A stretch of DNA of 64,000 nt, from the NCBI GenBank assembly GCA_020543525.1, contig JAHYIO010000004.1, positions 2,108,001 to 2,172,000 of the forward strand. The letters are read 5' to 3'. Shown here piece after piece: positions 28,866 to 63,351 of this stretch. A program made the position numbers and the translations under genes. Every line of letters begins with the position of its first letter. The first letter of the stretch is position 1. Source of the DNA: Coriolopsis trogii. Its lineage: Eukaryota; Basidiomycota; Agaricomycetes; Polyporales; Polyporaceae. The notes beneath the pieces were generated by a model, which made no database searches, had not been told where the DNA came from, and saw nothing but the letters and a program-made list of their open reading frames with translations.

Positions 28866-29805
28866 CAGCCCATTCAGTAAGAATATACTGTATGCTGTGT
28901 CCCTCGGCGGTGCAAATGCACTGTGTGGGCGTGGCACGCGGCGCCGCGCGGTCGGGTCGTGGGAACCTGGGGGGTGTTCCGCGCGGGTGGTCGGCCGGGA
29001 GGCATAATGGTGAGCCGCGCGGACCGGGTATGGGTGAGTGATCGGGTGGTGGTCCGGGGTAGGGGGACCGTGTTATGAGCGATCTGGACGCGTTCTGTGG
29101 TCGTAGACTGTCTGTATTTGCCTGCATAGTCCCTGTAGGCACTGTGAGTGACAATGCAACGTTTACCGGGCGTATTAAAGCAACACGAGGGGTGAAACGG
29201 TGAGTTGGAGCGGTCCGGGCAGGGGGACCGGGTGGCGGCTTGTGGGCCGGGAGGCAGGTGGATGGGTCCGGACGCCTTGGGCGAGTTATGGAGGCTACTC
29301 CCATGCTGGGAGGTGTGGTTTAGAGGGCATATGGGGCCTGTGCAAGGCGGTGTGGGCGGTGGGGGATGGGGGTAAGGGGTCGGGTTGCGGTTCGCCAGCC
29401 GGCTACATTGGCGGCTCGGACGGACGGCCTGTGTTCGTCGGAGCATATGGGTCCTGGCATAGCGTTTGGGACCTGTAGAAGCGGGTGTTGAGTGGGAAAT
29501 AATATACAGCTATGGTCAGGATGGTGAACCGAGCGGCATTGGAGATGGTGGTCCGGTGACCCGCGCGGAGTTGGCCATGTGGTGCGATGAGTACCGCGCG
29601 GCCCGACGGCAAGCTCGATATGGTGTTCCGCGCGGGCTTCACCCTGACTTTGGTTGTCCAAGCCGCGCGGTCGGTGTCATCTCTGGGATTGGTGCGCCGC
29701 GCGGCTCGGTATAAAGCAGTGCACTGCGTTCCGCGCGGCCGCCTGCCCACTGCACCAACCGAACCGCGGGTGCACCAGCCGACCCGGATGCGATCCCACA
29801 CTCCC
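28866..29805 (+). repeat. Outer element left terminal inverted repeat
   Basis: Reverse complement of 62412-63351. The stretch 28900-29480 is essentially identical to its partner, and a few substitutions appear toward 29500-29800. Similarity ends near CACACTCC. The outermost 40 bp (ATTCAGTAAGAATATACTG against the partner's ATTCAATAGAAATACTCTG) are the least conserved. ORFs of up to 216 codons here are mirrored at the other end and look like TIR by-products. Confidence 0.85.
29561..29738. repeat. CCGCGCGG array 1 (6 sites, ~34-bp period)
   Basis: Octamers start at 29561, 29594, 29628, 29663, 29697 and 29731: steps of 33-35 bp. The 26-bp spacers differ in sequence, so spacing is conserved more than content. 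Mirrored in the right terminal repeat. Confidence 0.85.
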
Positions 29806-29972
29806 TCTACGGGCTTCTTTGGCGGCTTAAACGGTCCACTGGTATTGTACCAAAACCGGGAGGGTTGGTGTAGTGTTATAGACCTCTAGAGAGGTATGTC
29901 AAAGCTGGGAAAAGATCCAGCCATAGTCAGGTCAGTGAACCGAGCGGCATTGGAAGATGGTTATTCAATGAG

Positions 29973-30151
29973 CCGCGCGGGGGTTGGCCGGATGGTAGTC
30001 ACAGTACCGCGCGGTGGGCTGGTGAGACCGCACCGATGATCCGCGCGGGATGCACAAAAACCCTTTGTCGCTGTGCCGCGCGGATGTCGCACATCCTGGT
30101 TATTCTGTCCCGCGCGGTCCTACATAATACACTGCAATGCGGTCCGCGCGG
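29973..30151. repeat. CCGCGCGG array 2 (6 sites, ~34-bp period)
   Basis: Octamers start at 29973, 30007, 30041, 30076, 30110 and 30144. The flanking sequence partly resembles array 1, suggesting duplication of a block of the terminal repeat. Confidence 0.85.
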
Positions 30152-31087
30152 CCGTCGGGCGTGTATCTACCTAGGCTAGGTTGTAAAGTCTCAATCCCGT
30201 AAGCTGCCATTGATTGACCTTTCCTCTGTATTTAAACCGGGTCAAGCGACCATCCATGTGGCGCGGCTCGCCCGGTTGGTACAAAAACCTAATCGGCTGG
30301 GATATGCCACTTTCCGTCCCCTTAGACACCCTCTCTCATGCGCGACTCTCCCGCTGGCCCGAGGCGATAGATTGGACCGAAGCCCAGCCCACTGAAGCAT
30401 GGCTTATAACTCAATTTACCTTGTCTCAGGGTAGAGGGCACCTCATTCCAAACCAAAGCCAGCGGCGGTCAGGCCAAGCTGGGCCGAGCACAATACTGTT
30501 GTCGGCAGTGCGACAAGTAAATGCGACCCGACCCGGGAATACATTTGTGTGCCGCGCGGTCGTTCAACATAAACCGGCTGCCTGTACCGCACGGAGGTTG
30601 GCTGCAAATCTTTACATTGAAACGCGCGGCCGGGTGTGGCTACTATGTGACCGATCCGCGCGGCCTCCCATGGGTCATGTCCATCCGTACCGCGCGGTCC
30701 GCTCACACTGTTCCAGCCCTGCTTTGTCAGACTGAGCTCGCCGGCCTCCATCTCAGTCATCAAGGAGCCCCTGGGAGTGTGAGTTCAGGTGGTACTCACT
30801 ACCAAACTGCTGACGAGCATGACGACCTGTAGAACCGGCTGAACGGCATCCTGGCAGGAGGCTTCTCATCCGAGCCGAGCGGTGCTCCCCTGGGCCTCAA
30901 ATTCCCCCTGAGCATACGCAGCCACCAGCCCGTGCGTTGGGTGCGAATTACAATGATTTGGAGGTGTGGGTATTCTGGCGTTCAAATATCGTCAAGTTAT
31001 TGCCGATCAAAAGCAAGATCTGTCATTGAGCCCGAAGTATGTACACAAGTGGGCCGCGCGTCCCTCTGAACATGTCTGCGCAAAGTC
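30152..31087. other. Subterminal spacer with scattered octamers
   Basis: No gene recognised. Isolated CCGCGCGG sites occur near 30551, 30657 and 30690. Confidence 0.4.
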
Positions 31088-31301
31088 CCGCGCGGTGCCA
31101 TAAGTGGTACTCTAAATTGTGCACCGCGCGGTAATAGCGGGGTTCTGGTTTGCTGCACCGCGCGGTCGCCACACCCCTACAGTCATATGCACCGCGCGGT
31201 CTCCAGAATGCTACAATCACATGGACCGCGCGGTCTCCACAGTGACACAGTCACATGGACCGCGCGGTCTTCACGATGGTACAATCACATGGACCGCGCG
31301 G
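31088..31301. repeat. CCGCGCGG array 3 (7 sites, 34-bp period)
   Basis: Octamers start at 31088, 31124, 31158, 31192, 31226, 31260 and 31294. The last four lie in imperfect tandem repeats (about 34 bp, containing CACATGGACCGCGCGGTCT), so here the spacer is repeated too. Confidence 0.85.
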
Positions 31302-31799
31302 TGACCCATCTGTTGCAGTCATAGTGCGGTGGCATGACTGTCAATGCTGCTTGCATGCAACATTCCTATATCAACTCTCACCTCGAACGTATGCTAGCCT
31401 TGGTAAATTAATCACTGTGCTCTCCTCCATGTGTTCAATGGTAACTTGCACGGCTGGGCTATGAGCCCTGGTGAAGTGTGCACCGAGCCGAATGTGAGCC
31501 GAGCCGGAATGCAGCACCTCGCGGCCTGGCGATTTGAGTCCACAAGAGGATCTCTCTGTCAAAGACGAGCATTGCAGACAAAGACCCTCAGCAGCATGCT
31601 ATTGCTCTGTTCTGGCAATTCTGTCTGCTTGCTGAGATCCCTGCTCATCAGCTCGAAAACCCTCGAGCTAGCCGAGGCTTGCCGCTGATGCCATGTGAAA
31701 TTCAGAGGTCCCGCTAAGGAGGAGCCTACAGAATTGAGCAGCCCTATTGCTTCGGGCTTTGGAAGCTGCGCGGTCCACCTCCCTTGAGCCATGGAAAGG
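31302..31799. other. Subterminal spacer
   Basis: No gene recognised. One GCGCGG half-site near 31768. Confidence 0.35.
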
Positions 31800-32012
31800 C
31801 CGCGCGGATTAGTCTGCAGCCCTCACGCAGCGGCCGCGCGGTATAGCAAATAAGTTATCCGACGATGGACCGCGCGGTGCAGTATCTAGACTCCCACAAC
31901 GCACCGCGCGGTGCAGTATCTGGACTCCCGCAACGCACCGCGCGGTACACCATCTAGACCCCCGCATCACACCGCGCGGGGCGCAATTTCCTTGCCACTG
32001 ACTCCCGCGCGG
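31800..32012. repeat. CCGCGCGG array 4 (7 sites, ~34-bp period)
   Basis: Octamers start at 31800, 31834, 31870, 31904, 31938, 31972 and 32005. Spacers contain GCAGTATCTAGACTCCC-like repeats. Confidence 0.85.
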
Positions 32013-32277: not shown

Positions 32278-33239
32278 CTAGTCTGATGAATTCTCCCATC
32301 CCAGCCGCCTATGCACCTCCTCGAGGACGTGATCCCAATGATTACCGTAGCCCTCATTTGCGTCTTGCATCAGCGCGCGGGATTGAACCTGGCCGACAAG
32401 TTGTCGGATGTAGTGGCAATGCCTAACCTCGGCGTCGACGTACCTCATGACGAGCTCCGTGACGGACATTGTTGCCGAGGCGTTCACGTTGTTCTCAGAC
32501 TCCTCCTGTGCAGGGATTGAGCGGAGATTTGGGGACGAACAAGGGCGCAGGATGGGGTCAGCGTCCAGGCGTACCTCAAGGGCTCCAGATGCTGCTGGGC
32601 CGGGTTGATCGCCGAAGAATGTATCGACAAGCATTTCGTCAGGCCCTTCAGGAGCCTCCTCACCAGCAAAGAACTGGGCGGAAAAAAACATGGGGCCCCC
32701 GGGAAAGGGCTGCTGGGCCGGCTGAGGAAATGAGTGGCCCAACTGGTGCTCGGCCACAAAGAGGGAGGCGTCGGCATCTTGGTGGACCTCGCTCGGTTCA
32801 GGAGATGCGTCGCCGAACCGGTGCTCAGCGACAAAGGAGCCGTCGACGTCCTGGTGAGCCTCGCCTGGTTCGGGAGATTCGTCGCCGAACCGGTGCTCGG
32901 CGACGAAGAGGGAGGCGTCGGCGTCCTGGTGAGCCTCACCCGGTTCAAGAGATTCGTCGCCGAACCGGTGCTCGGCGACGAGAAGAGAGGCGTTACCGGC
33001 TACATTGTCCTCTTCGGGTGGAGGAAACGAGATGTCTGTCTCCAGCCCAACCGCTGGGAGGTCAGGCGTTTCGTCGCCAAAAAAACCCTCGGCTCGGAGG
33101 AGCGAGGCACTGGCCTCTTCCATTTGTGGAGCCGGCTCGGGGGATGCATCGGAAAAGAAGTCGTTGGCAATAAGTGGGCTTACTTGACTTGCGTCTGTGT
33201 GCGTCGCCCCTTGCTCGCTGGTATCCGTGCTGGTTGGGA
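32278..33239 (-). pseudogene. Acidic repeat protein of outer element, split (3' part)
   Basis: The frame is open from the insertion boundary at 33239 to the stop at 32278. It encodes a strongly acidic protein with four imperfect 24-residue repeats of the type SLFVAEHRFGDESPEPGEAH (about 33000-32740). A linker with an FFAGEEAPEGPDEMLVDTFFGD variant follows, then a predicted helical C-terminus (VTELVMRYVDAEVRHCHYIR...WDHVLEEVHRRLGW). Joining the flanks of the inner element puts an ATG at 47014 in frame with this ORF, so the native protein of about 330 residues was cut after some ten codons. An internal ATG at 33123 could still start a shortened protein. Function and family unknown. Confidence 0.65.
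33233..33239. repeat. Target site duplication, left of inner element
   Basis: GTTGGGA, repeated at 46977-46983. With the preceding G on both sides it can be read as 8 bp (GGTTGGGA), since the element ends in a G/C that makes the boundary ambiguous by one base. Confidence 0.88.
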
Positions 33240-33670
33240 CAGCAGCTGTTGTAGCTTTGATGTATCACGAACAGGTAAATACTGTGCGCTGTTTTACAAT
33301 AGGAATAGGCAGGGGTTATGATGTATCATGACGTCTTCCCTAAAGGAGAGGATGCTCTAGCGGCCCTTCGGCTCCCTCCTCGGCTCCTCGGCACACTGCC
33401 TAATAGGGTAGCTGCAACACAAATACAGCGCCTCTGTAGCTAAATGTCTCCCCCGAGCGTTTACATGCCCAAATCCGGTACATATACATTGGGAGGGTGC
33501 GCTCAAGCGCCTACACTACCAAATCAAGCAGACACAGCGCCTAGTATACATCAGGGACCCTTGGGGCCTACTCCTGGCGGCTTACGGCGCTAGCACGGGT
33601 GGCTCTGCTCATCAGGGACCCTTGGGGCCTGCTCCTGGCGGCTTACAGCGCTAGCACGGGCGGCTCTGCT
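33240..33670 (+). repeat. Inner element left terminal inverted repeat
   Basis: Matches the reverse complement of 46546-46976. Contains two 61-bp tandem copies at its inner end. Confidence 0.88.
33549..33670. repeat. 61-bp subterminal tandem repeat, 2 copies
   Basis: Copies at 33549-33609 and 33610-33670, each starting CATCAGGGACCCTTGGGGCC and holding a GCTAGC core. The right end has three copies. Confidence 0.85.
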
Positions 33671-33761
33671 CCTCTCAGGGAAAGGTCTTGGATGTATCTG
33701 CCTGAGTAGGATGTAAGAGGGGGCATCTGTGCCCTGTACGCGTACCACGGAGTTCAAGATG

Positions 33762-36700
33762 CTATAACATAGACATATCATTCAAATCCTCACCCGGCAG
33801 CTCGTACATCATGCTACTGTCCAACTCCTGATCAGCATCTATCATATCAATGAGATCTTCTCCGTCTGCAACCTCCTTCCACTCCGCATCCTCGCACCAC
33901 TGAGCGCCAGTCTCCGCACGCGCATCTTGAATACATACAAGACGGAATACCTGGCGCATCCGCCGCCGGATGTAAGCTTGTTCAATCGCGTACGCTACGA
34001 GACCCTCCTGAAGCACAGGATCATCTGACGCGCAGTTCCTGGACAGCTCCAGCCAACGCTCCTCACCGTACTTGTGGAAGGCAAGCACTCGACGCATCTC
34101 CTCGAGGAGGATCTTGATCTCCTCCTGCCAACGCATGGTCCGCGCCCTTGCCTTTAGCCACTCAACCCGAAGGGAGTCCACCATGGCCTCAGAACCATGG
34201 AGATGAGAGGATCGCCAGATCCAGGACAGCTGGCGTCGACCTTCTGCGGGCCCAGACTCATTGACGCGTTGTTTGCGCTTGCGATTGTTGACATTCGCTG
34301 GCTCGTCATCCTGCAGGCCTCGGATATCGTCGTCCTCCAGCTCACGCAGCTCGCGCTCCCAGTCGCCACGTCCAGACAAGCGGAGCTTGGCACGCCAAGC
34401 CCTGCGGTACTTCGCAACTGCACGTGCTTTCCGAGTGTCCTGGGTCGTAATCTCACCGCGCGTTCGCGTGTTTGCTCCCTGGTGCCGGACGTGAGTTTTC
34501 TTGTATAGGAAAAGCTGGTCGATAGTGTGAAGTTGGTTCCTGAGATCCTGGAGTGAGTCGCGACATTGTGCTTCGCGCAGGCGAGCCTCGATCTCTTGAA
34601 CGCGTGGTGAGCAAATGATGTCGCGGCGCGAGACACTGATCTCGGAGGGGAGGCCGAGGCGAATGTCCTCGATGAGCTCAATGTCCGTCCGACACAAAGG
34701 ATCGCCTGTCAGCAGCTGCACCGCGCGGGGCATATAGATCGCCTGAAGCTCGCGGAACTTTTGGATTCTCCGCCGCAGTGACGTTCGGCGCTCGAAGAGA
34801 GCTGCCTGTTTGCTATTGGTGGCTGTCTTCGCGTCCTGCTTTAAGCGTATCCTGATGTCTAGTCAGCTTTATTTTCCTCACAAAATCACAAAGCTCACTT
34901 ACTTCGCGTGCTCAAGCTCAAGGCCCATTGTGACGAACCCTACTATGCTGACCTCGTGCAGTGCGATAAAGCCGGGGACTGCACTGGCCCTCTGCTCTTC
35001 GTCGGCGAGGATACGCAGGGTCTCGGCTTCGGTCAGACCTAAGAGCACAGGCCAAAGTTAATGTGCTATTCAAGTTGATCGCCCACATCCAGTGATGACC
35101 CACCTTCCAGAATCGTCATGTAGGGATCATCGTGTTTGAAGGGCTCTTTCTCCCATGCAAGGATTGACGCCTCCCACTTCAACAGGTCACCGGCATGTTG
35201 ACGGCGCAGTGACGCAGTGATTTCCTCGAATTGCTTGTTTTGTTCCTTGTAAGCCTCTCGTGCAAGTCGGAGGCGATCGCGCAATGTCCATGCTAAGGAA
35301 TATGGTGATCAGAGCACAGCGTAAGACTAGCAGCATGGGGCAGTTACTCACGCATGTCAACTGTCTTCCTCCAGTTAGAATACCCAAGCTGATCCTCCAG
35401 CATCCCTTGACGAGAGCCAGGACCCATGACCCTTGTACTGTTCGCTGTGGGCTGCAGCCACCACCACCGCCGTTCGGGTCCCTCGCCGTCTGTACGCCCG
35501 ACGCCAACGCGATAGTTGAGGGAGTAAGGCGAGTGCCCCTCGCGCTTGTGGCTTCCGAAATGCAGTTTTGGAATGACGTACATCAGTGAGCTCTCTGGCA
35601 CCTCGATCTTGAGGTGCGAGGGGAAGGCAGCGATGCGTTCGAGGAGATGCTTGGACCACTGGCAGGCAATATCGTAGCTTACAAGCTTGTTGAGGACGAG
35701 GTACTCCTTCATCGCGCAGACGAAGATATAGTCCATGTTGATGTACCTACATCGGGATCAGTCCGAGGCATTTCTCAGTGAGGAGCGCGTCACGTACTTC
35801 TCGCCTTTTTGGATATCGGCAATGCCATGTGCGAGCCAAAACTCATGGCGCGCGCATATAACCGCTCCCACTCCTGTAGCAGCATATCCCCTCGAGAACT
35901 TTGTATTCGCATGGTCTACTGCCGAGAGACCGGTGCAAGTTGATATCTAAAGTGGTATGAGTCGTAAGGTGCCAGTGAGTATTGTCACATGCGTGACTGT
36001 GTATCGCTGCCACGCACCTCTTCCTGGTCGCCATACGCAGCCAACACCTCCTTATAACCTGAGTCCTCGACAAAGTACGCCCATCCACTCCCAAGTATTG
36101 GATCCTTCTTCTCGTCGGAGACAGCGTAACGCTTCAGTCGGAAGCACGCGTCAATAGCCACAGTCATCATGTAGAGAAACCTGCCGGTGGTTTTGAGTTT
36201 CAGAAACGATGCATTCATGCAGGAGAGAGTGCGACTCACTTCAGATCATCGGAGACGCTACCCCAGTTCAATGGTAGGTTGATGTCAGGATGAGGGCAAG
36301 CCGGGCACCTCACCGCAAGTTCCCCCTGTCGCGTCCCTCCAACACCGCTCGCGCTGTGTCCCCGACCCGCACGCTTGAGCAACTTGAGATGGCGCCATTG
36401 AGCCACCACGCGCATGAAAGCTTTGTACCTGTCCTGCGCTTTTCGCGTGCCCGTGTTGTCCGTTAAGCGTTCGACCGATGTGTAGTAATCATACATTGAG
36501 ATCTTGCCCTGCAGGCTTTGGATGTGGTAGTGCTCGAGCAGCTCGAACGTGAAGCTGGTGTTGGGCTCAGTGCCTGTTGCAGGCCAGAGGTCGTAGCGCA
36601 TGAGCTGTTGGACGAGGTTACCTGCAGTCCCCGCGCGATCGCATCCACAGAAGTCCACCGCGAGGAGGTGGCGACCGTTGACGTGAACAACAGAGAAGTC

Positions 36701-37503
36701 GTTCTTAGCAGGAATCGGATTCGAGCATGGCGTACGGTCGTGCTGATGTCCGAGCTGGATTCTAAGGCCTAGTGTCTTGAGCGTTGTATCCTCGAATGTT
36801 CGTCCAGTCCAAGTCTATTTCTATATTTAAAGCGCGTCCTCGGTATAAAAAAAGGCGACATACCTTCACGCGATGGTATGGCATGTGTGCGTGATTGCGC
36901 ACCGTGCAGTTGGCACAGCGCAGTGGTCCTGGTGCACAGGAAGTGCATCGGATCGTCGGGGCTCCCCCGGGTGCAAGGGCTGGGCAGTCTACGCAGCGCG
37001 GCTTGGGAATGTGGCCGCGGCCCTCGCGTCTAAGCATCTCTTGCAGATACTCGTCGCGTCGCGGTAGAAAAAGCTGCATAGGCTCATCCTGGCCGGAAGG
37101 CGTTGGTTAACCACTACTTGACGCGCCCGTGAGGTGTGACAATACGTACCGAGCTCAGATATCGCACGGGGCGTTCCTCCTGGACCTTGAGTGGAATTTC
37201 TTCGTTGCCTGGTAATTCGTCGTATTCCGCCTCGAAGAGCGAGTCCCACTCGGCCAATGAGGCGTTCCAAAGGCCCTCAGCGCCAACGCACTCGGGAGCA
37301 ATAGAGGGTGCGGGGGAAGCTGAATGTGAGGGGAGTGGAATGGAGTGACGGCCGATGCGACGCCGGTCTTCAGAGACGTTGTCGACGGAGAATGACGGCC
37401 CATCATGGACAGGTATGCGCACGTCCGCGGTAGCGATGTCGAAGTCCGCGGTGAGGGTACTGTCCAAGGGCGGCTTGCGGGCGCGTTTCGTGCTTCTCGA
37501 CAT
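33762..37503 (-). CDS. KDZ transposase with CxC2 cysteine cluster (inner)
   Basis: Multi-exon gene starting at the ATG at 37503 (MSRSTKRARKPPL). Domain order: a Ser-rich N-terminus; a CxC2-type cluster (RCVDCPALAP..IRCTSCAPGP..CANCTVRNHAHMPYHRV, about 36990-36865); a second part of the cluster (QLGH...LLAVDFCGCDRAG); then the KDZ core with AIDACFRLKRY (about 36150), VSYDIACQW (Asp at about 35672), and TDGEGPERRWWWLQP (Glu at about 35483). These are the expected D-D-E acids. A long helical, basic C-terminus (RARTMRWQEEIKILLEEMRRV) ends at 33762. Known: KDZ transposases move large DNA elements in fungi. Exon joints were placed by GT-AG sites between open blocks; no stop or frameshift was noticed in the blocks. 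Confidence 0.85.
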
Positions 37504-37662
37504 TCTCCTTGACGTGACTCGGTCCCGAACAGTGAATGGGGAAGCAGGGATGCTTATCACAGGAAGTCCAACAGAACCTTAAGTCAAATTTGACACGTCC
37601 CTGCCCGTATGAGGGGTTGCGCGCTTAGCGCCCTTTTGCCCGTCCGACTCCCCCGGCCCCCT

Positions 37663-37730
<68 letters not shown>

Positions 37731-37747
37731 TCCCCTTTCTTTGCGAG
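37504..37747. promoter_or_regulatory. Divergent promoter with (CT)n tract
   Basis: Only 244 bp separate the start codons of the transposase (minus) and dioxygenase (plus). It contains about 60 bp of uninterrupted CT dinucleotides (37666-37725). Pyrimidine tracts are common in fungal promoters; the shared position suggests co-expression, which is inference. Confidence 0.6.
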
Positions 37748-44469: not shown

Positions 44470-44504
<35 letters not shown>

Positions 44505-47660: not shown

Positions 47661-50116
47661 ATGGCCTCCCGCAACGCTGCTCTCAACGAACTCGCTTTCC
47701 AGTGCCTTTGCGCCTGGAGGGAGCGTCCGGCATCCACCGACCCGGACCGGGCGCAATGGGCTGTGCAATTTTCCAAATTGCTCAAATCGCTCCTAACCGC
47801 CCTTAAGGGCATCACGGCCCCAACCCTCGTGCCTCCTTTTGTCAACGCGGTCGTCCATCAGAACAACGCCGCCTTTCAACAGCCTGGACGCCAAATAGAT
47901 ATCGACGCGATCAATCTGGAGACGGCCCCGGTCCGCATCGGGAAATGGTTCATTTTGGACCAGGAGTATCGCGAGCCGCCAACCGTCCAGGGCTGGTGGA
48001 CACGGCCAGGCAAGTAGAACATTTATGTTATCTTTGAGGCATGGCCAAAAAGAATGGGCGAGCCTTTTGTGGGTTTTGCTGATTGCATGGCCGCTTTTCA
48101 GCCGTGGCGCAACCTGCTCTCGCCGCTGCCTCGTCCTCCACGGCTCGGCCACCGGATGTCGGTTCGGCCTCCGTCTCCACCATGACGGCCGGGCCGAGTT
48201 TTCCCCATCCGCAAGCCGGTTCAAAGCGGCTGGACATTCTGAATGTCACACCGCCCAGCCGACGGGTCTCATCCTCCATGGAGCTGTCCGACAAGTCGGT
48301 TCGGTTCGCGGCGACGCCCGATCCGAACGCACCACCCCCTCCTCCCCACCAACCCACTCCTACCGCATCTCAAGGCGGCCCGTCCACCACCGGCGTGACG
48401 AAATTGATCTTAAAACTCCCGGGTCCAGTGGAACCTCTCCCCACTGTGGACATGCCGTCAACGCCGACTCCCAGCCGACGGCGACGTGCGAGCTCCCGGG
48501 CGGCCGCGGGCCGGGCCGATGAAAGTGATGCCCCGACGTCAGCATCACAGGCCCCGGCTCCCGACCCGGCCAGCGCATCGGCATCCACTGGGATGAGGAC
48601 GAGGTCACGAGCAGCGTCCTCCGCGGGCGCAGCACGCTCCTCGTCCTCGACAATGAGCAAGAAAGGCAGATCCCAGCGGTCCGCGACAGGAGCCGCCCAC
48701 CGGTACCAGGAGGTCGACCTCCAGAAGCCGCTAGTAAACGAGTGGCGTCGTCCGGTGAGTGTTTTTTTCCTTTAGCTCTATCTTTTAACTGAGGTCTTTC
48801 CAGCCAATCAAATGTTCTCGTTGCGAACGCCGCAACCTCCTCTGCCTCGTCAACCTCGCCAACCGCTCAACATGCAACTGCTGCACCCAGGGGAAGACGT
48901 CTTGTTCTTTCGCGCCGCAGCTACGCAAGGGGTCGAAAAAGTCAACATACCGACTGTATCGCTGGTTCAAGGACAAGTCCCTCCAACACCAGCATCCGAA
49001 GGAATACTCTGCGGATAGCGAGTTCTCAACGGCCCCTGTCCCTGAGTGGTGGGAGAAGAGGTTTTGGAAGCTGTACGAGACAAACGCCAACGTTCCCGGG
49101 AGAGAGGTGGGCGAGCCGAAACTGCCCTCCACGAACACCTCGAGCAAAAAGCGGAAGAAATCCGGCTCGGTCTCGAGCGCGGTGAGCCAGGAGAGCCCAT
49201 CCGTATGTGTTTTTTTTGGGCTCCATTTCCCGTTGTTAACCAGTTCATAGTCGTCCAAGATAGGCCCCGGCCCGGCCAAGCGTGCTCGTCCGACCCGGGA
49301 GATCACGGCGGTCGAGCCCGACGACCGTAAGTTTTCGTCCGGTCCACTGTTTTTTTGTTTTGTTCACTGTTATTGCCCGCAGGTGAATGGGACGACATCC
49401 CGGCCGTCGAGGATATGCACCCCCCTCCCCAGTCGCGCACAAGACGCGCCAAGGCAGCCGCGACCTCCGTCAACGTCGGGAAGGGCTCGTCGTCTGCCGT
49501 CGCTGGCCCGTCCACGGCCCACGAGGACGTTGAGGGTGAGGCTGCCGGGTCGGACGTCGATACCGAGCCGGACAATGTGTGGCGCCGCATCATGCGGCTG
49601 GAGGACGTGTCGACCTCGCTGCTCACCCAGGTCCTTCAACTCGAGGACAGGGTTAAGGCGCTGGAGGCCGAGAAAGTCGCCATGGAGACGCGGATTGTGG
49701 AGGAGCAGAAGCATCAGTCGAGCGCCATGGACGTGCTCATGGCACGTATTCTGGACCTGGAGGAGGGCCTCCCCACAACCTCTGCCGCTGTCAGCAGGCG
49801 CGCCCCCAGATCCTCCTTGCTGCATCCGTCCACTCCCGTCACGGCTTATGTCCCCTCCGACCCCTCGTCATCCCCTAGCCCGCAATCCAGGAAGGCGCGC
49901 CGCCACGCGAAGAAGAACAAGGGAAAACAGCGGGCCCGTGCTTCCCAGAGCCTGTCCCCGGAGCCAGAGGAGGGGGTGGACGAGGAGTACGACATGACGG
50001 GGGTGCCTGAGCCCCAGCCGGACTCCGGCCCGGATGACGAGGAGCTGATGCAAGTCGATCGCGACGAGGACGGGCAAGGCGAAGAGGCGACAACTGCCCA
50101 ATATGATCGTAAGTGA
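47661..50116 (+). CDS. Zn2Cys6 coiled-coil protein of outer element
   Basis: Likely DNA-binding regulator. The start at 47661 (MASRNAALNELAFQC) has a helical N-terminal domain ending near WTRP. Intron 1 (48010-48101) uses a GC donor (CAG|GCAAGT) and TTTTCAG acceptor; only this choice keeps the frame into AVAQPALAAASSS. A Ser/Pro-rich exon runs to 48754. The next exon holds KCSRCERRNLLC and CNCCTQGKTSC, spacing C-x2-C-x6-C-x9-C-x2-C-x6-C, the exact fungal Zn2Cys6 binuclear cluster. Basic residues KGSKKSTYRLYRWFK follow. The last exon has a heptad-like coiled coil LTQVLQLEDRVKALEAEKVA (about 49620-49690), a basic KARRHAKKNKGKQRAR stretch and an acidic tail. Unlike host factors, the cluster is internal rather than N-terminal. 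Confidence 0.8.
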
Positions 50117-54300: not shown

Positions 54301-54471
54301 CGCATATGGATCGTTGGCATCGCGCTCCCGCCCCTCAAGAATTTTTGTGGTCAGGGCGTTTTTCACCAAGGTCTTCTCGTTCTTAGACATGGTGAGCCAC
54401 GACTCAAGGTGCTCCTTGAGATACTTCTGTTCCTTCTCGGTGAGCCCTAGGTCTTCAGCCACGGCGGCCAT
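51325..54471 (-). CDS. Large nuclear-type protein of outer element
   Basis: Multi-exon gene from the ATG at 54471 (MAAVAEDLGLTEKEQKYLK). Blocks: KEHLESWLTMSKNEKTLVKN; after intron 1, KINSWFQLNLNTGANRVPKE and AFNQARSALWRALPPAEQTR with RYEDIARTWTLQGPP, a helix pattern loosely like an HMG-box; IKKRLPHWVHGFLKMLWDQT; a 71-nt intron (GTATGT...GCCAG) to LKENDLPPFGAKYPGWFEGP; then KKYLLAYFKALYG. A following long exon includes FRFTHYAVGSSAELIEATYG, an Ala/Lys-rich stretch and LYSLGNLPEFHQVLESWRHM. The last exons are acidic, ending basic (RRSARKAKRV). The overall architecture parallels the large protein of the inner element. No enzymatic motif is visible. Probably a DNA- or chromatin-associated accessory protein, by inference. 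Confidence 0.65.
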
Positions 54472-54775
54472 TGTGGTGGATTGTGCAGCAAAAAGGCGTA
54501 TAAACAAAACAAAGCAATGATAATACCTGGCCCGGTCGTAGCCCTCGTCCTGATACTAAGTCATCCGGGCAGTGGGGCAGCTCGCGGGTCGTTGCCCGGA
54601 TGAGGCTTTCGGGTCGGATGGGACCGGTCCGGCCATCGATACGGGCGGCAGAACAATGCGGCGATCCTCTCCTCCCGCCTCGCGCCAAGTAGGCACGCTG
54701 ATTGCGCATCAAACTCTCCACACGACACCTTATCACGCCACAGACTTGACGTGTGACCCTTGACCCTGCTCCGCC
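54472..54775. promoter_or_regulatory. Divergent promoter region of outer TET/JBP gene
   Basis: 304 bp between the start codons of the minus-strand large protein and the plus-strand dioxygenase. Unlike the inner element, no long CT tract is present. Confidence 0.4.
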
Positions 54776-56075
54776 ATGGATGCATATCCCGCTGACTCTG
54801 GCGCGTTTCACGACCGTGTCTCTGCTCATCTCAGAGACCTGGTACTTGCGCAAATCTGCGTAGTATCCAGTCCAACAGCTACCACAGGCATTGGCATATC
54901 AGACTGGACCGATGGACTGGAGGCCGATCTCCAACGGGCGGCAGATGTGATTTCATCCGCGTGGAGCTACCCGGGTAGATATTTGATCGAGACTGCGGAC
55001 GGCTCACAATCGCTGACCATCTCCCCGATAGTTCCAGTGCCCTGGAATGCTCAAGATCTTGCAGACCAACTCTCCAAGCGCCCAAGCGGCTTGTGCATGG
55101 CCCTTGAGGACGCTTTGCTAGACACGTTCCCGCCCATGTGTGGTATTGAAGCTGTGCTTCAGAATAACTTTCCGCTCTTACGGCGGCCGGCCGTACTTGT
55201 CGACCCGCAGAATCGCATCCTGCTTTGGTACCTGCCAGGGGTGTTAAGCTCTGAGCGTCAGGTGAAGCGAGCTGATTTGCAATAGCGCTGATGACAAATT
55301 AATCTTGAGTTCCAGGACGCCATGCTGCACGCTACAGATGCGATCAAGGCTCAGTTTACTATTGGCCCGCCCACACACGATCCCGCGGTTAAGTGGCGGT
55401 CGGCTCCTACCTTTTACGGCCCGGGTCACATATGGCAGTCCGGCCAGTGGCTCGGCAGTCCAGTCCAGTATCCGTGCGGGCACCAGGTGAGCCGCAATGA
55501 ATATTTGACCGGACGACCATTCAAACGCGTGAATACTGCTGCAGGGCAAAGCCACCAAGCCAGGGCCATCTAAACAGCTTAATACGCCTGCCGGAGCTGT
55601 ATGGTGCGACCGTATGAAGGAATCAGGCGCGCTGTGCAGCGCTCTGCTGTTTGTGACTCATCCGGCCCTGTACCGCGCGGCCCGGGTCACGATGGCCCGA
55701 GCCGCAGACGCAGCATCAACCGCGGTAGGAGAACATCACAGGCTGTGGCCTTCGGTATGGCACAGTACCCAAGTAATCATAAACCGCGAGACTCCCTTTC
55801 ATCGAGACACCTCTGGCAAAGACACATGGTACGAGCTCCTCATGTCACTCGGAACGTGTTCCAAGGCAGCACTGGTCCTCCGGAACATCGGAATACAAGT
55901 CGGATACCTTCCGGGAACGGCGGTGTTGATGTCCAGCCGGCTTATCCACCATGGGGTAGCCAAAGTTGAGCCGGACCGTATATGCTACACTTGGTACATG
56001 TCCGCTTCCTTACATAACAATTTCTCTGGCGAGGATGTGCCTTGGGTTACGCGGGACGAGCTATCCGGACCATAG
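54776..56075 (+). CDS. TET/JBP-like 2OG-Fe(II) dioxygenase (outer)
   Basis: Second member of the DNA-base dioxygenase family, of a different subtype from the one at 37748. Start at 54776 (MDAYPADSGAFHDRVSAHL). Exon 1 contains FPLLRRPAVLVDPQNRILLW and ends at SSERQ; after an intron the next exon starts DAMLHATDAIKAQF and includes KWRSAPTFYGPGHIWQSG. The last exon carries the catalytic fold: KPGPSKQLNTPAGAVWCDRM, VIINRETPFHRDTSGKDTWY (His at 55800, Asp at 55806), VGYLPGTAVLMSSRLIHHGV (distal His at about 55950) and DRICYTWYMSAS with the 2OG-binding Arg. All metal and cosubstrate ligands I can check are kept. It sits 62 bp upstream of the KDZ transposase start, on the same strand. Confidence 0.85.
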
Positions 56076-56136
56076 TATACTCAACGCCGCGCTTAAATCG
56101 TCCTCTGTACTTGTAACGCCTTTGCATAACTCTATC

Positions 56137-59100
56137 ATGACGCGTCGTCCTCGTGCTACACCACATCCCGCATATCAGACTCTGACTATCGCCACCAAGA
56201 CAACGAAAAGAGGCACCCAGCGTGTATGGACAGCCAGTGCAGCGGGAGCACCATCGGGGGCCCAGCGACGGGTGAGGAAGCCCAGGGAGCCCAAAGAGGT
56301 ATTGCCTACTTCGAACAACCCCGACTTTCTGGAGATGTCGGTTGGGGAATTCACCTTTGTAGGCCCACAGGTACGTTGGTGTAATTGGGGATCCAAATGG
56401 GAGGTTGACGGGCCGGACCGCTGGAATAGAAGCCCAATGAGTACCAGCTTCTATGGCTGAGAGAATTCCGAGCCACGTACCTCCGCGAGCTGTACGAGAG
56501 GGAGGCCCAGCCTGAGGAAGACGACGTCATGTGCGGGTGTGGGGGACCAGCACTTTGGCGTTGCCTCGACTGCTCTAGCCAACGGCCGCAGTGTAGGAGG
56601 TGCTGCAAAGAGGCCCACTTTCGACATCCCTATCATCGCGTTGAGCAGTGGACTGGTACTCACTACCAAAAGTCAAGTCTTCGGTCCATGGGCGTCCGTA
56701 TCTACCTCGGTCACGGAGGAGAAGTCTGTCCGAGTCTCAGATGGACGGATGACACGAGCTGGAGACAACCGCACTCAACCGCACCCAGTGAACCTCCCGA
56801 GGTATGCATCCGTAATACTTGGGAGTGGCTCAAGCTCATCACTCTGTTAGCACGACGACAATCGCGCATCGTCGCCCATCTCTGAACCGGGGCATGAATA
56901 TCACTCCGAACCAGGGACGCCACCACCACCCTCATCTCCATTGCCCGCCTCCTCTACGCCATCTAGTCCAGTGCTATCGTTAAGGTCTACTGCGAGAAAC
57001 ACACCTGTCAGAAGTTTGCCGAGACGTCTCCCCAGGCGCCCATATTCCGGCCCACGGGTCGGGCCATCGGCCGGCCCGAGCATCACCCCCATGAAACGTT
57101 CCCAGCCAGAGGACTCCGACTCTGAGTCAGAAGACGACGCCAACGTTCGTATGACAAGACAACGTCTGGAAGGGCCAGATGTAGAGGTTCCGGAGGAAAA
57201 TATCCAGGACATACTGGAGGCCGAAGAAGACAATCCGGACGATGCCTACGGTGTGAAGTCGGACGACGCGGCTCACATGCCCGGCTCGGGTGGGGCACCG
57301 CCCGATGGGTTGAACCGAGTTTTCTCGGACATGGAAGGCGACTACACCAAGGTAATGGTAGTTGTGGATACCTCAGGGGTGCACGAACTTCCAGTAGTAT
57401 CCTGTGCGTGCCACGACTCCCCTCCGCTCGACATTCAGCTGTTACGGCTCGGCCTGTATCCGGCCACCACCGCAAGGCCCAAGACACTTTTCACGTTTCG
57501 GGTCCTGGACGACGTGCTGCTAACAACAAAAGAGTGCAAGACCTCGATACAAAACTACTACAACAAGCTGCGACGTGTCACCGACGATCTCTTCCCACAT
57601 TCCGTCCCGGTACGGCTGCCTTCCGGCTGACACATGCACCGACCCCACTTCTAACGTCTCAATTTCAGAATCGATACAGAGAGTTGCTACGTGTTTCACG
57701 ACAGTGGAGAAACTTGAAGTCATGGAAAACGAGTGGGGTTGGATATGAGGATCTGCTCCAGCCAGGGCGAGGGCAGTTCATCTTCCGGTGCCCGGCTTGT
57801 CCATGGCCGAACCGGAACATGAGGGACGGATGGAAGACCGACAAACGTTGGTAAGTTCGTCAGTGCTTATTCCGATGTTCATACTGTACATTGGAACATA
57901 CGGTGCAGGTGGAAGCATGCCGGGTCATGCATGCTCGATGGCAACTTCGCTGCACAACATCAGCTTCAGAAGTATCCACAACTAGACGTGCGGTTCGCCG
58001 ACGGGCATGGCTGCGCGGTTGCAGTTTCTCCCTTCAAGGAGCACCTGAAAACTGCTTTCCGAGTTCGACAGGTCAGTTGAGCCGGCCCGAAATCAGTCGG
58101 ACCAATAGATGCTGATCGAGCCTGGCAGAAACTGGAATGCCATGAGCATCGTGCAGTCCTCGGATCGTCCACGGAGCGTGCCAAGCTGGCTGCAACTGGA
58201 ATAGGGGCGGCAGTTTGCAGTCGTCATGGATTCTTCTATCCCCACTCATGTGTGGATTTTGACGCAGGCGAAGGGTCAGTGTGTTGACGTCAAGCATGAC
58301 AGCCCGCCACTGACAGAGCACACAGTCAACGACATATGGACTATGTCCTCAGCGAGGCCATGTCGTTCCTGGCCGGGCTGACGTTCCTCCTTGTGTTCTA
58401 CGACATATGGTGCTTCTACTCCGTTCATCTGCTCACCCGAATGGAGAAGAGCCCTGGCATATCAATTCCGGAGGGCCTCGTCGTTTCGGGTGGTATTGAT
58501 CAGTTTCACGTCCATGGTCATAAGCGGGAATGCTACCCGCGGTACTCACCTCACTTTGTACCCGGAGCCGGAGTCCAAACCGGGGACATCATCGAAACGC
58601 TCTGGGCTCCTCTGAACAAAATCAGCGATAGCACACGTGGCATGTCGGCTGCGCACCGTCAAGAGTTCAATGACGATTTCATGAACGATTCCAATTGGAA
58701 CAAGCTCACCCGCCTAAGTAAGCATGCGCCCCCCACCCGAAAAATGTTCCGGCTAACGGTCTGCAAGCCGCATCTCTCGTGAAGAAGTGGCGAAATGCCG
58801 CAGAGGAGACACCGGGTGCCCAAGAGGGATTTCACTCCATCACGGCCACATCTGACCCAAATGACGTGCGTGTATGGTCGCGGATGGCGAAGGAAGCGGC
58901 CGAGCAACGAAGACAGAACATCAAAGTCATGGACATATACGACATGTCAGAAGACAGCCGTAAGTACTCTCCCCCTCTATTGCACGACGTGTCTTCACTG
59001 AGTCTTGGAGACAGTGCCCACAAGAAAAGAGATCGCTCTGGAGCTGACGAAAGAGGAGACCAAACACCCCTCTAAGCTGCGTGGAGCGGTTGCCTGGTTA

Positions 59101-60437
59101 CAGACAGGCCTCAAGATTGAGGAGAAACGGTACGAACGGTGATCTCATGGAGGTTATATAGCTGTATCTAACGAGAACTTGCACTGCAGTCTCGAAATAG
59201 CAGCCACCGCCCGAAAACTTCGGTCTACCTCGCCCACCAAGGACCATCTGGCTCTCGAGCAGATGCGCGTGAGGCTGCTAAGGGACATAGAGAAGTTCCA
59301 TAAGGAGGCCAGCCGGTTTCTGCCAGCTGCAGCTCTCTCAACGGCATTATTCCTTCCGCCATCCACGAAATCACCGGGCGCCGGCTGGGATACGCTCAAG
59401 CCATCCGAGCCGGGGTCCGGCTCGGCGGATGCTGAACCGGTCGACAATCATAGCGATGACGAGGACGAAGATCCACTCCCACAATCCAACCTGGAGTCCC
59501 ATGCTGCTTCCAGCGCTGAGAACCAGCCGAGAACAGTGGGCGAATCTTCGTCTGCCACCACTGCACCTAATGCCACATCCACCCCTCGAAAGTCGACCGG
59601 TCCGGTACAGCCGTCGGAACGGATCACTATCGGCCTGCCCTCGAATCTCGGACCCGCGTTGTGCGCTATGCATGGGCTAAAAGACCTCGTTGTCAAAGAG
59701 CGGCGCCTTCGCGTGGGGCAGATGAACGACGCCCTGCACGCAGTTCGCGTGGGCGTCGCCTACAAGTCTTTCCTCTACCGATCGTCTGTCCGACGGGCCA
59801 CTTCGTACCGCGCACGCCTCCGAAGTTTTGACGAGGTGCATAACTCCAATCAAGACACGTTGGCACATGCCCGTCTGTATATGTGTGCTCGAACCTCCCT
59901 CATGAGTCTCTATGACGACAGCATTCCGGCGGATGCTAAGCTGAAGGAGGAGATGCTGGCTAAATATCGGGTCCTGGAGAAATCAGACCTCAAGGCCAAC
60001 ACAACCCTAATCGAACACGACGTCCGCGGTGTCTCGCACAAGCACCTCCCCTGGTTTTGGTCTCTTGACGTCAATATGGAAACAAAGGGCAGCGCCTGGA
60101 TGGCAGAATGTGAGTAGCCATCGTCTCTCTAGCATCCCGCAGCTCTGACCCGGGCCGGCTGACCACAGTGTACCGAGTTCTCTGGCTGAGAGCCCATGCG
60201 AGAAAGACGCGATGGGAGGAGGAGGTAGACATTGTGAGCGAAGAGTTTTTCCGGACGGAGACCTCCTTCCAAAAAAATCGGGACGAGTGGCTGCAGCGCA
60301 AAGATTCATCGCTCGGCCGCGGTTATCGTGCCTGGGCATGCCGGCAGGCTGCTCTTTGGGATTCCCTGGCAATTCATGCCTCCAGAGAGTTTTCCGAGGC
60401 ACAGCGTATTTGGAAAGCCCCCACTGTATCCTTATAG
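56137..60437 (+). CDS. KDZ transposase with cysteine cluster (outer)
   Basis: Start at 56137 (MTRRPRATPHPAYQ). After an intron at about 56371-56430 comes KPNEYQLLWLREF and the cysteine cluster MCGCGGPALWRCLDCSSQRP and QCRRCCKEAHFRHPYHRV (56530-56640). A Ser/acidic linker precedes VMVVVDTSGVHELPVVSCAC and the fold part LGLYPATTARPKTLFTF. The catalytic core shows SCMLDGNFAAQH (Asp at 57937), TGIGAAVCSRHGFFYP, VFYDIWCFYSVHL (Asp at 58402) and GDIIETLWAPLN (Glu at 58594), then FMNDSNWNKLTRL. The C-terminal helical exons run from 59190 with VRLLRDIEKFHKEASRFLP to the stop at 60437. Sequence is clearly different from the inner transposase, so the two elements belong to different KDZ lineages. Exon joints are inferred from GT-AG sites. 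Confidence 0.85.
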
Positions 60438-60599
60438 TTCACTTTAGTATGTACGTTCTGAGTTACTCGGTTGAATTGCGGCTCGGATGGCGGCCCGGGC
60501 CACGGCCGGCGTTTACTTCGTTGGCCCGGCGCGCTGGTGACAAAGGCTACAGCTTCCGAAAGCTTATCCGCCCCATCTTGCCCTCCTACAATCATACCA

Positions 60600-61435
60600 A
60601 TGCCTCCACTCGCCGCCGATATTATGCTCTCGGAGTGCGGAAGGTTCGAACTCGAATGGATCGCCAACAAGATCGCTACCGCCTTCAAGGCCTATCCCGA
60701 ACACCCGTCGCAGATAACCAAACAGCGATGGGGAACAGGCCTCGCAATAGAATGCGTAGGTCCCAAGATTCACCACTACTCAAGCGCGCCGTCACTAATT
60801 GTTTACTTTTACCAGTGGGACGCCATAGCGGCCTACGGAATTCACTGTACCGGCAAAGCACTATCGCCTGCAGTGCCCACCGGGGCGACCCAGTCGGCTG
60901 ATCCGGTGTTGCCAGCAATCATCACAGAGCTCCTACGTCATGCCGCATGGCGAGGACTCTCCATGTCAATCGCAATGGATGACCTGAACCTGGCGGCTTT
61001 CAAACAACTGGCTGAAGACGTCCCCGAGATGAATGTTGAAATTCCTATGGTCCGAAGGTGGTGGGAGTGGCCCGAAGACGCCCAGAATGTTCAAATTGTG
61101 GAGGGTCATAGCTGGTGGCTGTCTCCTCCCGAATTTGTGGTGAGTTCTGATTTCTTGTTGGGGTACAGTTCGAGCTCATAGCCTTGTATACTCAGCCGCA
61201 GCCATTGCAAGGATATGCCTGGGATGTTGTTGATATAAACGTCCACCTCGATGCCATCACCCAAGCAACCGAGTCCATGTTTGACAATTACGACACCCTT
61301 GTTCACGACCTCGCGATCATCACCGGCGAGGGCGCAGATGACAGCGAGGCCTCCCGGCTCGGAGACAGGATGGAGGCACAACAGGCGGAAGGGCACATGG
61401 AGGGCGCTGACGAGAACATCCAAACCCTAAACTAG
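60600..61435 (+). CDS. Unknown protein downstream of KDZ transposase
   Basis: The ATG at 60600 (MPPLAADIMLSECGRFELEW) opens 163 bp after the transposase stop. Residues include IANKIATAFKAYPEHPSQIT, SSAPSLIVYFYQWDAIAAYG, MSIAMDDLNLAAFKQLAEDV and VRRWWEWPEDAQNVQIVEGH, ending LSPPEFV at about 61140. A second block, ALYTQPQPLQGYAWDVVDIN to HMEGADENIQTLN (stop at 61435), stays in frame if a very short intron (about 29-32 nt, ending GTACAG) is removed. I cannot confirm that intron. No family recognised. The mixed alpha/beta composition suggests a globular protein. Confidence 0.55.
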
Positions 61436-61667
61436 CACAGTGCCCATGTAACCGCATAGTACAACCATGGAAGTGACCACCGGAGTTGCCCAGCCGCACC
61501 AGGATGTGTCCGGCATACAGCCAATTCTGTCAAACCCACTCTGCGGCACATACCGCGCCCTCTAGGGGGGTCAGCCCACAGGGTCAGTCCGAGACAGGGC
61601 GCCAGCGGTCCGTCACATCCGGGTCGGCTGGTGTACCCGCGGTTCGGTTGGTGCGGTGGGCAGGCAG
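61436..61667. other. Spacer before the right subterminal arrays
   Basis: No gene seen. The sequence near 61615-61665 (GGGTCGGCTGGTG) starts a direct duplicate of 62425-62480. Confidence 0.35.
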
Positions 61668-61878
61668 CCGCGCGGAACGCAGTGCACTGCTTTATACCGA
61701 GCCGCGCGGAATGCAGTGCACTGCTTTATGCCGCGCCGCGCGGCGCACTGACACTGGAAGCGGCACCGACCGCGCGGCTCGGAAACCAAAGTCTTTGTAC
61801 AGCCCGCGCGGGACACCCTCCCAGCGTCATCCCACGCCCGCGCGGTACTTTGCCCAGCACCTTGCCAGCTCCGCGCGG
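61668..61878. repeat. CCGCGCGG array 5 (7 sites, 34-bp period)
   Basis: Octamers start at 61668, 61702, 61736, 61770, 61804, 61838 and 61871. The block is an imperfect direct duplicate of array 6. Confidence 0.85.
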
Positions 61879-62411
61879 ATCACTGGATCACCGCGGTCCA
61901 AAACGTATCTTCCACCAGGAGCATAGCATGCCTGACCTACAAGTCGCTCCAGCAGCGTCGTCCGTGAAAGACTGCCAAGTCGGCGTCCATGGCGGCGGGG
62001 TAGATCCTCGTTCAGGAAGCTAAATTTGGATCACATGTCAATGCCATTGCTAGCGAGTATGGCCCAGACTTCCCTTTTAACCTCGCTCTTGCCATTGTGA
62101 GCGCATGACAATGTGAATCATGATGTGCACTTGGCACGGTAAACGGCGAGGATAATTTGAACACCATATGGACCGGAAACATAGAACAGATGGCCGCCCG
62201 GCTCAAGCCATCCGAGCGGTTGTGCTCTCCGCGCGGCTCGGTCAACGACTTGGCGCCAGCGGTCCGCGCGGTTCGGGCGCACGGGAGGTCCAGAGTTTCC
62301 GCGCGGTACGAAGTCATACCATTGAAGCACAGTTTGTTAGAGGCGCAATAAATGATGATTGCACAAGGGCAGCCCTGGGATACAAGGCGGACCATACCAG
62401 AACCTCATAGG
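61879..62411. other. Right subterminal spacer
   Basis: No gene seen. Three more octamers near 62229, 62263 and 62299 keep a 34-36-bp step. Confidence 0.4.
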
Positions 62412-63351
62412 AGGAGTGTGGGGTCGCATCCGGGTCGGCTGGTGCACCCGCGGTTCGGTTGGTGCAGTGGGCAGGCGGCCGCGCGGAACGCCTTGCACTG
62501 CTTTATACCGAGCCGCGCGGCGCACCAATACCAGAGATGACACCGACCGCGCGGCTCGGAAAACCAAAATCATGGTGAAGCCCGCGCGGAACACCATATC
62601 GAGCTTGCCGTCGGGCCGCGCGGTACTCATCGCACCACATGGCCAACTCCGCGCGGGTCACCGGACCACCATCTCCAATGCCGCTCGGTTCACCATCCTG
62701 ACCATAGCTGTATATTATTTCCCACTCAACACCCGCTTCTACAGGTCCCAAACGCTATGCCAGGACCCATATGCTCCGACGAACACAGGCCGTCCGTCCG
62801 AGCCGCCAATGTAGCCGGCTGGCGAACCGCAACCCGACCCCTTACCCCCATCCCCCACCGCCCACACCGCCTTGCACAGGCCCCATATGCCCTCTAAACC
62901 ACACCTCCCAGCATGGGAGTAGCCTCCATAACTCGCCCAAGGCGTCCGGACCCATCCACCTGCCTCCCGGCCCACAAGCCGCCACCCGGTCCCCCTGCCC
63001 GGACCGCTCCAACTCACCGTTTCACCCCTCGTGTTGCTTTAATACGCCCGGTAAACGTTGCATTGTCACTCACAGTGCCTACAGGGACTATGCAGGCAAA
63101 TACAGACAGTCTACGACCACAGAACGCGTCCAGATCGCTCATAACACGGTCCCCCTACCCCGGACCACCACCCGATCACTCACCCATACCCGGTCCGCGC
63201 GGCTCACCATTATGCCTCCCGGCCGACCACCCGCGCGGAACACCCCCCAGGTTCCCACGACCCGACCGCGCGGCGCCGCGTGCCACGCCCACACAGTGCA
63301 TTTGCACCGCCGAGGGACACAGTATACAGAGTATTTCTATTGAATCCAGTG
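62412..63351 (-). repeat. Outer element right terminal inverted repeat
   Basis: Reverse complement of 28866-29805 without indels. The ORFs of 156-190 codons here mirror those of the left repeat and are not called as genes. Confidence 0.85.
62479..62656. repeat. CCGCGCGG array 6 (6 sites, mirror of array 1)
   Basis: Octamers start at 62479, 62513, 62547, 62582, 62616 and 62649, the reverse-complement positions of array 1. Confidence 0.85.

Follow-up and report, generated by a model that had tools for sequence, protein, structure and literature searches.

What is the biological function of the regularly spaced octamers that line both ends of a 34.5-kb transposon in Coriolopsis trogii? The transposon lies in the window, the 64-kb stretch of contig JAHYIO010000004.1 that was analysed as a whole, and carries genes for a KDZ transposase and a TET/JBP dioxygenase. 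It is a Kyakuja-like element, a subgroup name that is taken from its target-site duplication, termini and TET gene. Its ends contain phased copies of the octamer CCGCGCGG, each with three CpGs. We consider it somewhat probable, judging from sequence, that these arrays act in cis as the subterminal binding platforms of a Kyakuja-like transposon family and that they would be occupied by an element-encoded factor, putatively a Zn2Cys6-like protein.

Phased octamers at the two ends of the element

The window contains 53 exact octamers, and 51 of them fall into ten arrays at the two ends of the element. The left end has 32 (28944-32005) and the right end 19 (61668-63266); single octamers lie at 34721 and 55673, and none is found elsewhere in the window. 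The original prediction had counted about 30 and 20 octamers in at least six arrays, and both its counts and its six example positions between 61668 and 61838 agree with these data, whereas the number of arrays is corrected to ten. Eight additional sites are in phase with one mismatch (29529, 29940, 30587, 30622, 31054, 31766, 62194 and 62681), two of them at 32 bp from a neighbour, and bring the arrays to 59 sites (left 3, 7, 7, 5, 8 and 8; right 7, 4, 7 and 3). As predicted, neighbouring exact octamers are mostly 34 bp apart: 40 steps lie within 33-36 bp, divided into four of 33, 25 of 34, seven of 35 and four of 36 bp.

Such arrays are not expected by chance. First-order Markov sequences (1000 for each end) contain on average about 0.19 octamers on the left and about 0.20 on the right, with maxima of 3 and 2. 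Adjacent steps of 33-36 bp account for 25 of 31 on the left and 15 of 18 on the right, compared with random placement means of 1.0 and 0.6 (maxima 7 and 5 in 20,000). The arrays are partly related to each other, in that L1-L2 and R1-R2 are mutual copies within a 947-bp inverted repeat (98%) and R4 is partly related to L2. The 34-bp excess nevertheless survives control for block duplication: six blocks that are unrelated after octamer masking (L1, L2, L4, L5, L6 and R3) contain 13 steps of 34 bp, two of 33, four of 35, three of 36 and a single 104-bp step that spans two one-mismatch sites. A common register across arrays is inconsistent with the inter-array gaps of 546, 242, 408, 358 and 180 bp.

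The arrays recur in sister copies; together with the surviving 34-bp excess, this contradicts both of the outcomes that would have refuted the original prediction. In the 38.8-Mb genome, a 195-bp terminal probe has 24 matches. Both ends and genes are retained by the window element (W), C36, C4c, C30 and C4a (20-34 kb), and the family further includes a right end with genes (C2), a left end at C4:678567, a partial terminus at C4:1411841 and five short copies of 4-6 kb (C25, C5, C4b, C9 and C4d). An old relative (dv) has its left end at C4:1390552, and an array-bearing stretch at C4:1433512-1434879 looks like its other end. Among the matches listed for the Zn2Cys6-like, TET and 59143 proteins and for CxC2, none lies in a short copy. 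Arrays 1 and 2 are retained at either end of the short copies. The 7-bp target-site duplication is exact in seven of the ten copies compared, including the short C25, C5 and C9 (three of the five short copies); C30 has one mismatch, C4d has no duplication and C4b has inverted flanks. For dv, a target-site duplication was not found. CA at the left junction and TG at the right junction occur in all ten copies, in C4b with two right-type ends. The short copy L043 (C4:1413164-1417981) resembles an inverted duplication, with two ends of the right-hand type, flanks that are reverse complements and exons of the dv Zn2Cys6-like gene on both sides.

Phasing is exclusive to this family. The octamer occurs 1465 times genome-wide and its reversed form, used as a control, 1008 times; exact phased pairs and triples number 198 and 122 for the octamer and zero for the control. 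Fourteen family stretches hold 335 of the 1465 octamers and every pair (198/198) and triple (122/122), so that no exact phased pair lies outside them in 38.8 Mb. A host DNA-binding or chromatin protein could in principle read the octamers and thereby, for instance, silence the element or insulate it, and about 1130 octamers outside the family stretches would leave room for such a reader. However, this number is close to that of the reversed form, an exact phased pair never occurs among them, and lineages that transpose would not be expected to maintain a silencing platform for the host. We regard a host reader as very improbable. The arrays are likewise not a general KDZ feature of the genome. 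No phased octamers were found in the scanned parts of an element nested in W, in any other place or in 9.4 kb beside the genes of a relative, C8, in which TET, the 59143 open reading frame (ORF) and CxC2 were looked for and found. Phased triples in 13 viral stretches (L052-L064) show no similarity to the element (blastn, 1e-5) and apparently arose by chance in GC-rich DNA.

Retention, orientation and decay of the sites

How have the octamers fared relative to the DNA between them? We aligned 23 termini, comprising 12 of the autonomous type (group A), 10 of the short type (group B) and one from dv; the aligned rows share ancestry, and the p-values below are only guides. In array 2 (offset 640-880), the consensus sequences of groups A and B are identical at 55 of 56 octamer positions and at 81 of 184 other positions. 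None of the 119 non-octamer windows of eight columns matches fully, and two match at seven of eight. The same array in dv keeps 49 of 56 octamer bases and 83 of 184 other positions of W, and its site-by-site spacer identity to W (0.30-0.58) brackets that of shuffled spacers (0.41-0.47). Three terminal sites of dv lie within 1 bp of the W offsets, and its left end has four further arrays. The age of the split is reflected in protein identities of 39-65% for the Zn2Cys6-like protein, 52-65% for CxC2/KDZ, 71% for the 59143 protein and 74% for TET. Among autonomous left ends, W differs from C36 and C4a at 1.8-2.0% of octamer bases and 5.2-5.8% of spacer bases (p 0.015 and 0.010). Of the decayed copies, C30 shows the reverse (octamer versus spacer change 3.9 versus 1.2%) and L678 no difference (12.2 versus 11.5%), and the octamers therefore decay after insertion. 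Selection on the octamer is strong. In a separate observation, the consensus identity of the two subfamilies falls abruptly from 97% to about 68% some 200 bp inside the terminus, a pattern that conversion or exchange near the end would leave.

Could the arrays be passive tandem repeats, in which slippage or unequal exchange multiplies 34-bp units and the octamer serves no function? Unit duplication has left its marks. Adjacent spacers are at or below the 95% limit of shuffled spacers in 22 of 30 pairs, and the eight pairs above it have the look of units duplicated recently. In the short subfamily, array 2 resembles recent copies of a 34-bp unit, C5 has one extra unit of this length, and W and C4c differ equally in octamers (3/304, 1.0%) and spacers (10/838, 1.2%). 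However, a neutral unit should lose octamer and spacer alike, and its CpG-rich octamers faster, which is the opposite of the contrast between groups A and B. Moreover, most arrays share one orientation. Thus, a purely passive origin is scarcely to be expected, and we return to the reading of the arrays as sites maintained for a bound factor.

Beyond the octamers and their orientation, for which we argue selection outright, the spacing itself is probably under selection. Sites keep their 33-36-bp steps through spacer change. The case for selection on spacing, which had been predicted from the differing spacers, holds in that octamers and steps are both kept, but it is no more than probable because it is not cleanly separable from the growth of arrays by duplication of 34-bp units or from the scarcity of indels in the whole terminal region, where A- and B-type ends align without gaps over 616 bp (blastn).

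The octamer is a palindrome, as had been noted, but the full site is not self-complementary. The full site is the oriented sequence YGNNCCGCGCGG, which mostly faces inward at both ends. Read inward, G occupies position -3 in 36 of 42 sites and the mirror position in 14 of 42 (R1 and R2 omitted as copies). The old relative dv, which was not used in finding the polarity, shows it as well (27/34 versus 10/34). The exact octamer at 55673, within the TET exon, also has G at -3; it has a counterpart in the same place in the other five mapped gene-bearing copies, whose exon is nearly identical. The site orientation is new here, as are the mismatched remnants at skipped register positions described below and a Zn2Cys6-like gene that tracks the arrays.

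All 44 positions that are skipped between exact sites hold an octamer with one or two mismatches, whereas a shift of 17 bp out of phase yields 0 of 44. Of the 50 changes at the skipped positions, 40 are CpG transitions (chance 6/24). Outside octamers, CpG transitions in group A affect 95 of 1584 bases, compared with 90 of 4991 at other G/C. Because decay is dominated by CpG transitions, the arrays were probably methylated in silent copies. Are the octamer CpGs protected? At autonomous-type ends, they change less often than other CpGs (17/672 versus 95/1584; p 4e-4 with rows that are not independent). Protection is absent in the short subfamily (48/540 versus 72/721) and in the private changes of C30, which affect 11 of 211 octamer CpGs, 10 of 273 other CpGs and 7 of 2337 non-CpG positions outside octamers. 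Since octamer and other CpGs of C30 decay about alike, there is no sign that octamer CpGs are specially kept unmethylated.

Candidate binders and the element that encodes them

Which protein would bind the arrays? Three binders had been proposed originally, and co-occurrence makes the Zn2Cys6-like protein the most likely of them, with C8 as the one contrast. It is favoured because CCGCGCGG contains an everted CCG-N2-CGG pair and because its gene tracks the arrays. Everted pairs of this form are the kind of half-site arrangement read by Zn2Cys6 dimers, and Gal4-type clusters follow the pattern CX2CX6CX5-12CX2CX6-8C. The predicted protein has this six-cysteine spacing at 48813-48905, and dv keeps all six cysteines. 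The exon is present in all seven gene-bearing array elements (duplicated in dv and interrupted by one stop in C2) and is found nowhere else in the genome at E <= 0.001, C8 with its TET and CxC2 genes included. In comparison with C36 and C4a, which are diverged copies, the ratio of nonsynonymous to synonymous change (pN/pS) of this gene is 0.19-0.30.

If the proposal is correct, the element-encoded protein would coat the arrays as a nucleoprotein complex, and this complex would mark and pair the ends for the KDZ transposase. Host methylation of the CpGs would block the platform, and the TET/JBP dioxygenase of the element would help to reopen it; both steps are proposed because each site has three CpGs and the element encodes such an enzyme. 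A more elaborate and, taken as a whole, doubtful version would make the array a self-contained epigenetic switch. A Zn2Cys6 reader that recognises the oriented three-CpG sites only in their unmethylated state would recruit TET/JBP to keep them open, and the same filament would pair the ends for KDZ. The sites would then form a 34-bp spiral over both ends, and the array would couple escape from methylation to mobility.

Several points weigh against a Zn2Cys6-bound platform. A gap-rich pairwise alignment of dv with W raises the identity of other positions to 118/189 (62%), with octamer bases at 48/55. Array L6 lacks polarity (G at -3 in 3/7 exact sites), and duplication of 34-bp units may by itself have passed on the phase. 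At 10.5 bp per turn, 34 bp corresponds to 3.24 turns and rotates neighbouring sites by about 86 degrees, which places them on different DNA faces. Classic same-face cooperativity is therefore not what the spacing suggests, and the geometry would be a spiral rather than a single face. The functional array resembling protein-binding sites that had been predicted for this KDZ/TET element is supported in that octamers are kept across spacer turnover. As for the protein, its exon has no Pfam match up to E 10, and the assignment rests on cysteine spacing. A search of solved-structure sequences gave 12 hits, all photosystem I subunits and taken as chance, and the structure model of the cysteine-cluster exon is uninformative (predicted local distance difference test score 46). 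The cluster has an atypical loop that lacks one of the basic residues with which Gal4 contacts CGG. The pN/pS values are scattered among close copies (0.13-0.97, with few changes), and the C2 copy has a stop. Finally, the correlation between gene and arrays has one negative contrast, C8, whose element ends are not located. No relatives of the protein were found at E <= 0.001 among 7990 scored candidates, of which the number of fungal proteins is not known.

Instead of the Zn2Cys6-like protein, the KDZ transposase itself may bind the sites via its CxC2 cluster, leaving the former with another role. In W, the KDZ domain is preceded by CxC2, which is present in all seven gene-bearing copies, and short copies retain arrays 1 and 2 at both ends, as expected of transposase-binding sites. 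This binder is nevertheless unlikely, given that no exact phased pair accompanies the other CxC2 loci (six among the matches listed), that C8 lacks arrays in its 9.4 kb of flank and that a transposase would seem to need fewer than the 38 sites on the left.

Less likely still is an anti-silencing platform of the VANDAL/VANC kind, in which the bound protein would recruit TET/JBP and the arrays would serve expression rather than end recognition. It is consistent with a TET/JBP exon in all seven gene-bearing copies (one with a stop), with CpG-transition decay that suggests methylation and with the ability of VANC21 to bind a 9-base motif that is tandemly repeated in the noncoding DNA of its own TE family (PMC5735166). 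However, arrays are also kept in copies that lack TET, within a single copy the CpGs of the octamers decay at about the rate of the rest, and the motif is constant across diverged elements, unlike VANC targets. Furthermore, Kojima speculates that target specificity is lacking in AG-type enzymes (PMC12730594). Thus, our preferred reading remains a platform at which an element-encoded, putatively Zn2Cys6-like protein would act on the ends.

The features of the element are collected in Table 1. Its junctions read GGCGAAG|CA on the left and TG|GGCGAAG on the right. The TET/JBP enzyme named in the original prediction is confirmed, and a six-frame Pfam scan of 46977-61519 (E <= 0.01) finds nothing beyond Tet_JBP, CxC2 and KDZ. 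The 59143 ORF has homologs, among the matches listed, in the seven gene-bearing family elements and in C8. Compared with C36 and C4a, an ORF at 32278-33264 and the Zn2Cys6-like gene are 80-90% identical, compared with 98.6-99.6% for the exons of KDZ and TET, which gives the impression of mosaic copies formed by recombination between element haplotypes. The terminal inverted repeat was also considered as coding sequence and rejected: differences between W and C25 are spread evenly over codon positions (49, 45 and 41 of 135), and no frame is free of stops within the first 650 bp of the 11 termini examined. A-type ends retain one 211-amino-acid open frame, but B, L678 and the old relative have it interrupted. 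The nested element (33240-46976, 13.7 of the 34.5 kb) is bounded by a 435-bp inverted repeat (33240-33674/46542-46976, 99%), with 61-bp tandem units in both arms and a (TC)32 run at 37666-37729. It has its own CxC2 match on the minus strand (36449-36781), and an equal-scoring match lies at C6:737930.

Table 1. Positions in the window of the outer element, its genes and its octamer arrays
Feature	Position	Strand	Remarks
Whole outer element	28866..63351		CA..TG termini, KDZ and TET/JBP, Kyakuja-like; houses nested 13.7-kb element
Left target-site duplication	28859..28865		GGCGAAG, 7 bp
Right target-site duplication	63352..63358		GGCGAAG, 7 bp
Left arm of 947-bp subterminal inverted repeat	28872..29818	+	98%; starts at element base 7
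Right arm of 947-bp subterminal inverted repeat	62399..63345	-	
Array L1	28944..29022	+	3 octamers, steps 35 and 36 bp
Array L2	29529..29738	+	7 sites, first is CCGAGCGG
Array L3	29940..30151	+	7 sites, first is CCGAGCGG
Array L4	30552..30697	+	5 sites, two with one mismatch, in phase
Array L5	31054..31301	+	8 sites, one with one mismatch; unit duplications in part
Array L6	31766..32012	+	8 sites, one with one mismatch
Predicted gene, Zn2Cys6-like protein	47661..50113	+	Candidate array binder; exons and likely coiled coil read by eye
Cysteine cluster of Zn2Cys6-like protein	48813..48905	+	CX2CX6CX9CX2CX6C; likely coiled coil further on
TET/JBP dioxygenase domain	55608..56000	+	PF12851, E 6.8e-11
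CxC2 cysteine cluster	57346..57588	+	PF18803
KDZ transposase domain	57928..58695	+	PF18758, E 5.2e-31
Conserved element ORF (59143)	59143..60117	+	No Pfam match
Array R4	61668..61878	-	7 octamers
Array R3	62194..62306	-	4 sites, first is CCGCCCGG
Array R2	62479..62688	-	7 sites, last is CCGCTCGG; mirror of L2
Array R1	63195..63273	-	3 octamers; mirror of L1

Comparison with known transposon systems

Among the closest described systems are the Kyakuja TET+ transposons, for which a 7-bp duplication and CA..TG termini are given in the available part of Kojima 2025 (PMC12730594). They share with the present element the KDZ transposase, the TET/JBP gene, the duplication and the termini (PMC12730594, same part). 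The TET/JBP dioxygenase lies inside the element here, and the same exon is present in six other family elements. We use the term Kyakuja-like because the 947-bp inverted repeat is present here, whereas no terminal inverted repeats are stated for the two Laccaria bicolor families in the accessible text (PMC12730594). Relative to Kyakuja as described there, the present element adds phased CpG arrays and a Zn2Cys6-like gene (PMC12730594); the words 'subterminal', 'tandem repeat' and 'CpG' do not occur in that paper. Of the open-access papers searched, none joins 'Kyakuja' with 'subterminal', and no description of phased arrays in KDZ elements was found in open-access titles and abstract openings, a search that does not cover subscription papers. 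The KDZ1-KDZ3 elements of Cryptococcus are DNA transposons shown to move and likewise encode a KDZ transposase with a CxC cluster; as far as the available text of PMC12810828 goes, they differ in their size of about 9-11 kb, terminal repeats of 139-241 bp, duplications of 4-8 bp and a cluster of the CxC1 type. The word 'subterminal' is absent from the text of PMC12810828.

The Pfam content of the present element sets it apart from the VANDAL/VANC system. VANDALs have a Mutator-type transposase and, to our knowledge, carry no TET enzyme, whereas the scan of 46977-61519 shows only Tet_JBP, KDZ and CxC2. The two systems resemble each other in an element-encoded factor, which is putative here, and in family-specific short motifs in noncoding tandem arrays (PMC5735166, PMC10398659, available parts). 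According to the same parts, VANC targets vary considerably between related elements, whereas the motif is constant here (PMC5735166, PMC10398659). Binding is demonstrated for VANC (PMC5735166, accessible part), whereas the present platform is known as a sequence pattern.

The proposed platform would be analogous to the TNPA sites of En/Spm elements of the CACTA type, and likewise to VANC sites of VANDALs. En/Spm elements have CACTA ends, a 3-bp duplication and a Tnp2-type transposase, and the present element, with its CAGCC ends, 7-bp duplication and KDZ transposase, does not belong to them. Both types have many short repeats at both ends, which serve TNPA in En/Spm, and an element-encoded DNA-binding protein beside the transposase, putative in our case (PMC2613891, available part). 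A GC-rich motif open to methylation and short copies mobilised in trans are further likenesses in that text, the mobilisation of the short copies here being proposed by analogy (PMC2613891). The two types have different transposases, termini and duplications, the motif of En-1 measures 12 bp, and neither a fixed spacing nor TET is mentioned in the accessible part of PMC2613891. The arrays described here supply a defined DNA site, a register, an orientation, a candidate binder and natural short derivatives, and they bear on how transposon-borne TET/JBP enzymes are aimed and on accessory end-binding proteins in KDZ elements. If our proposal is correct, subterminal platforms of the En/Spm kind would exist also in an unrelated transposase superfamily.

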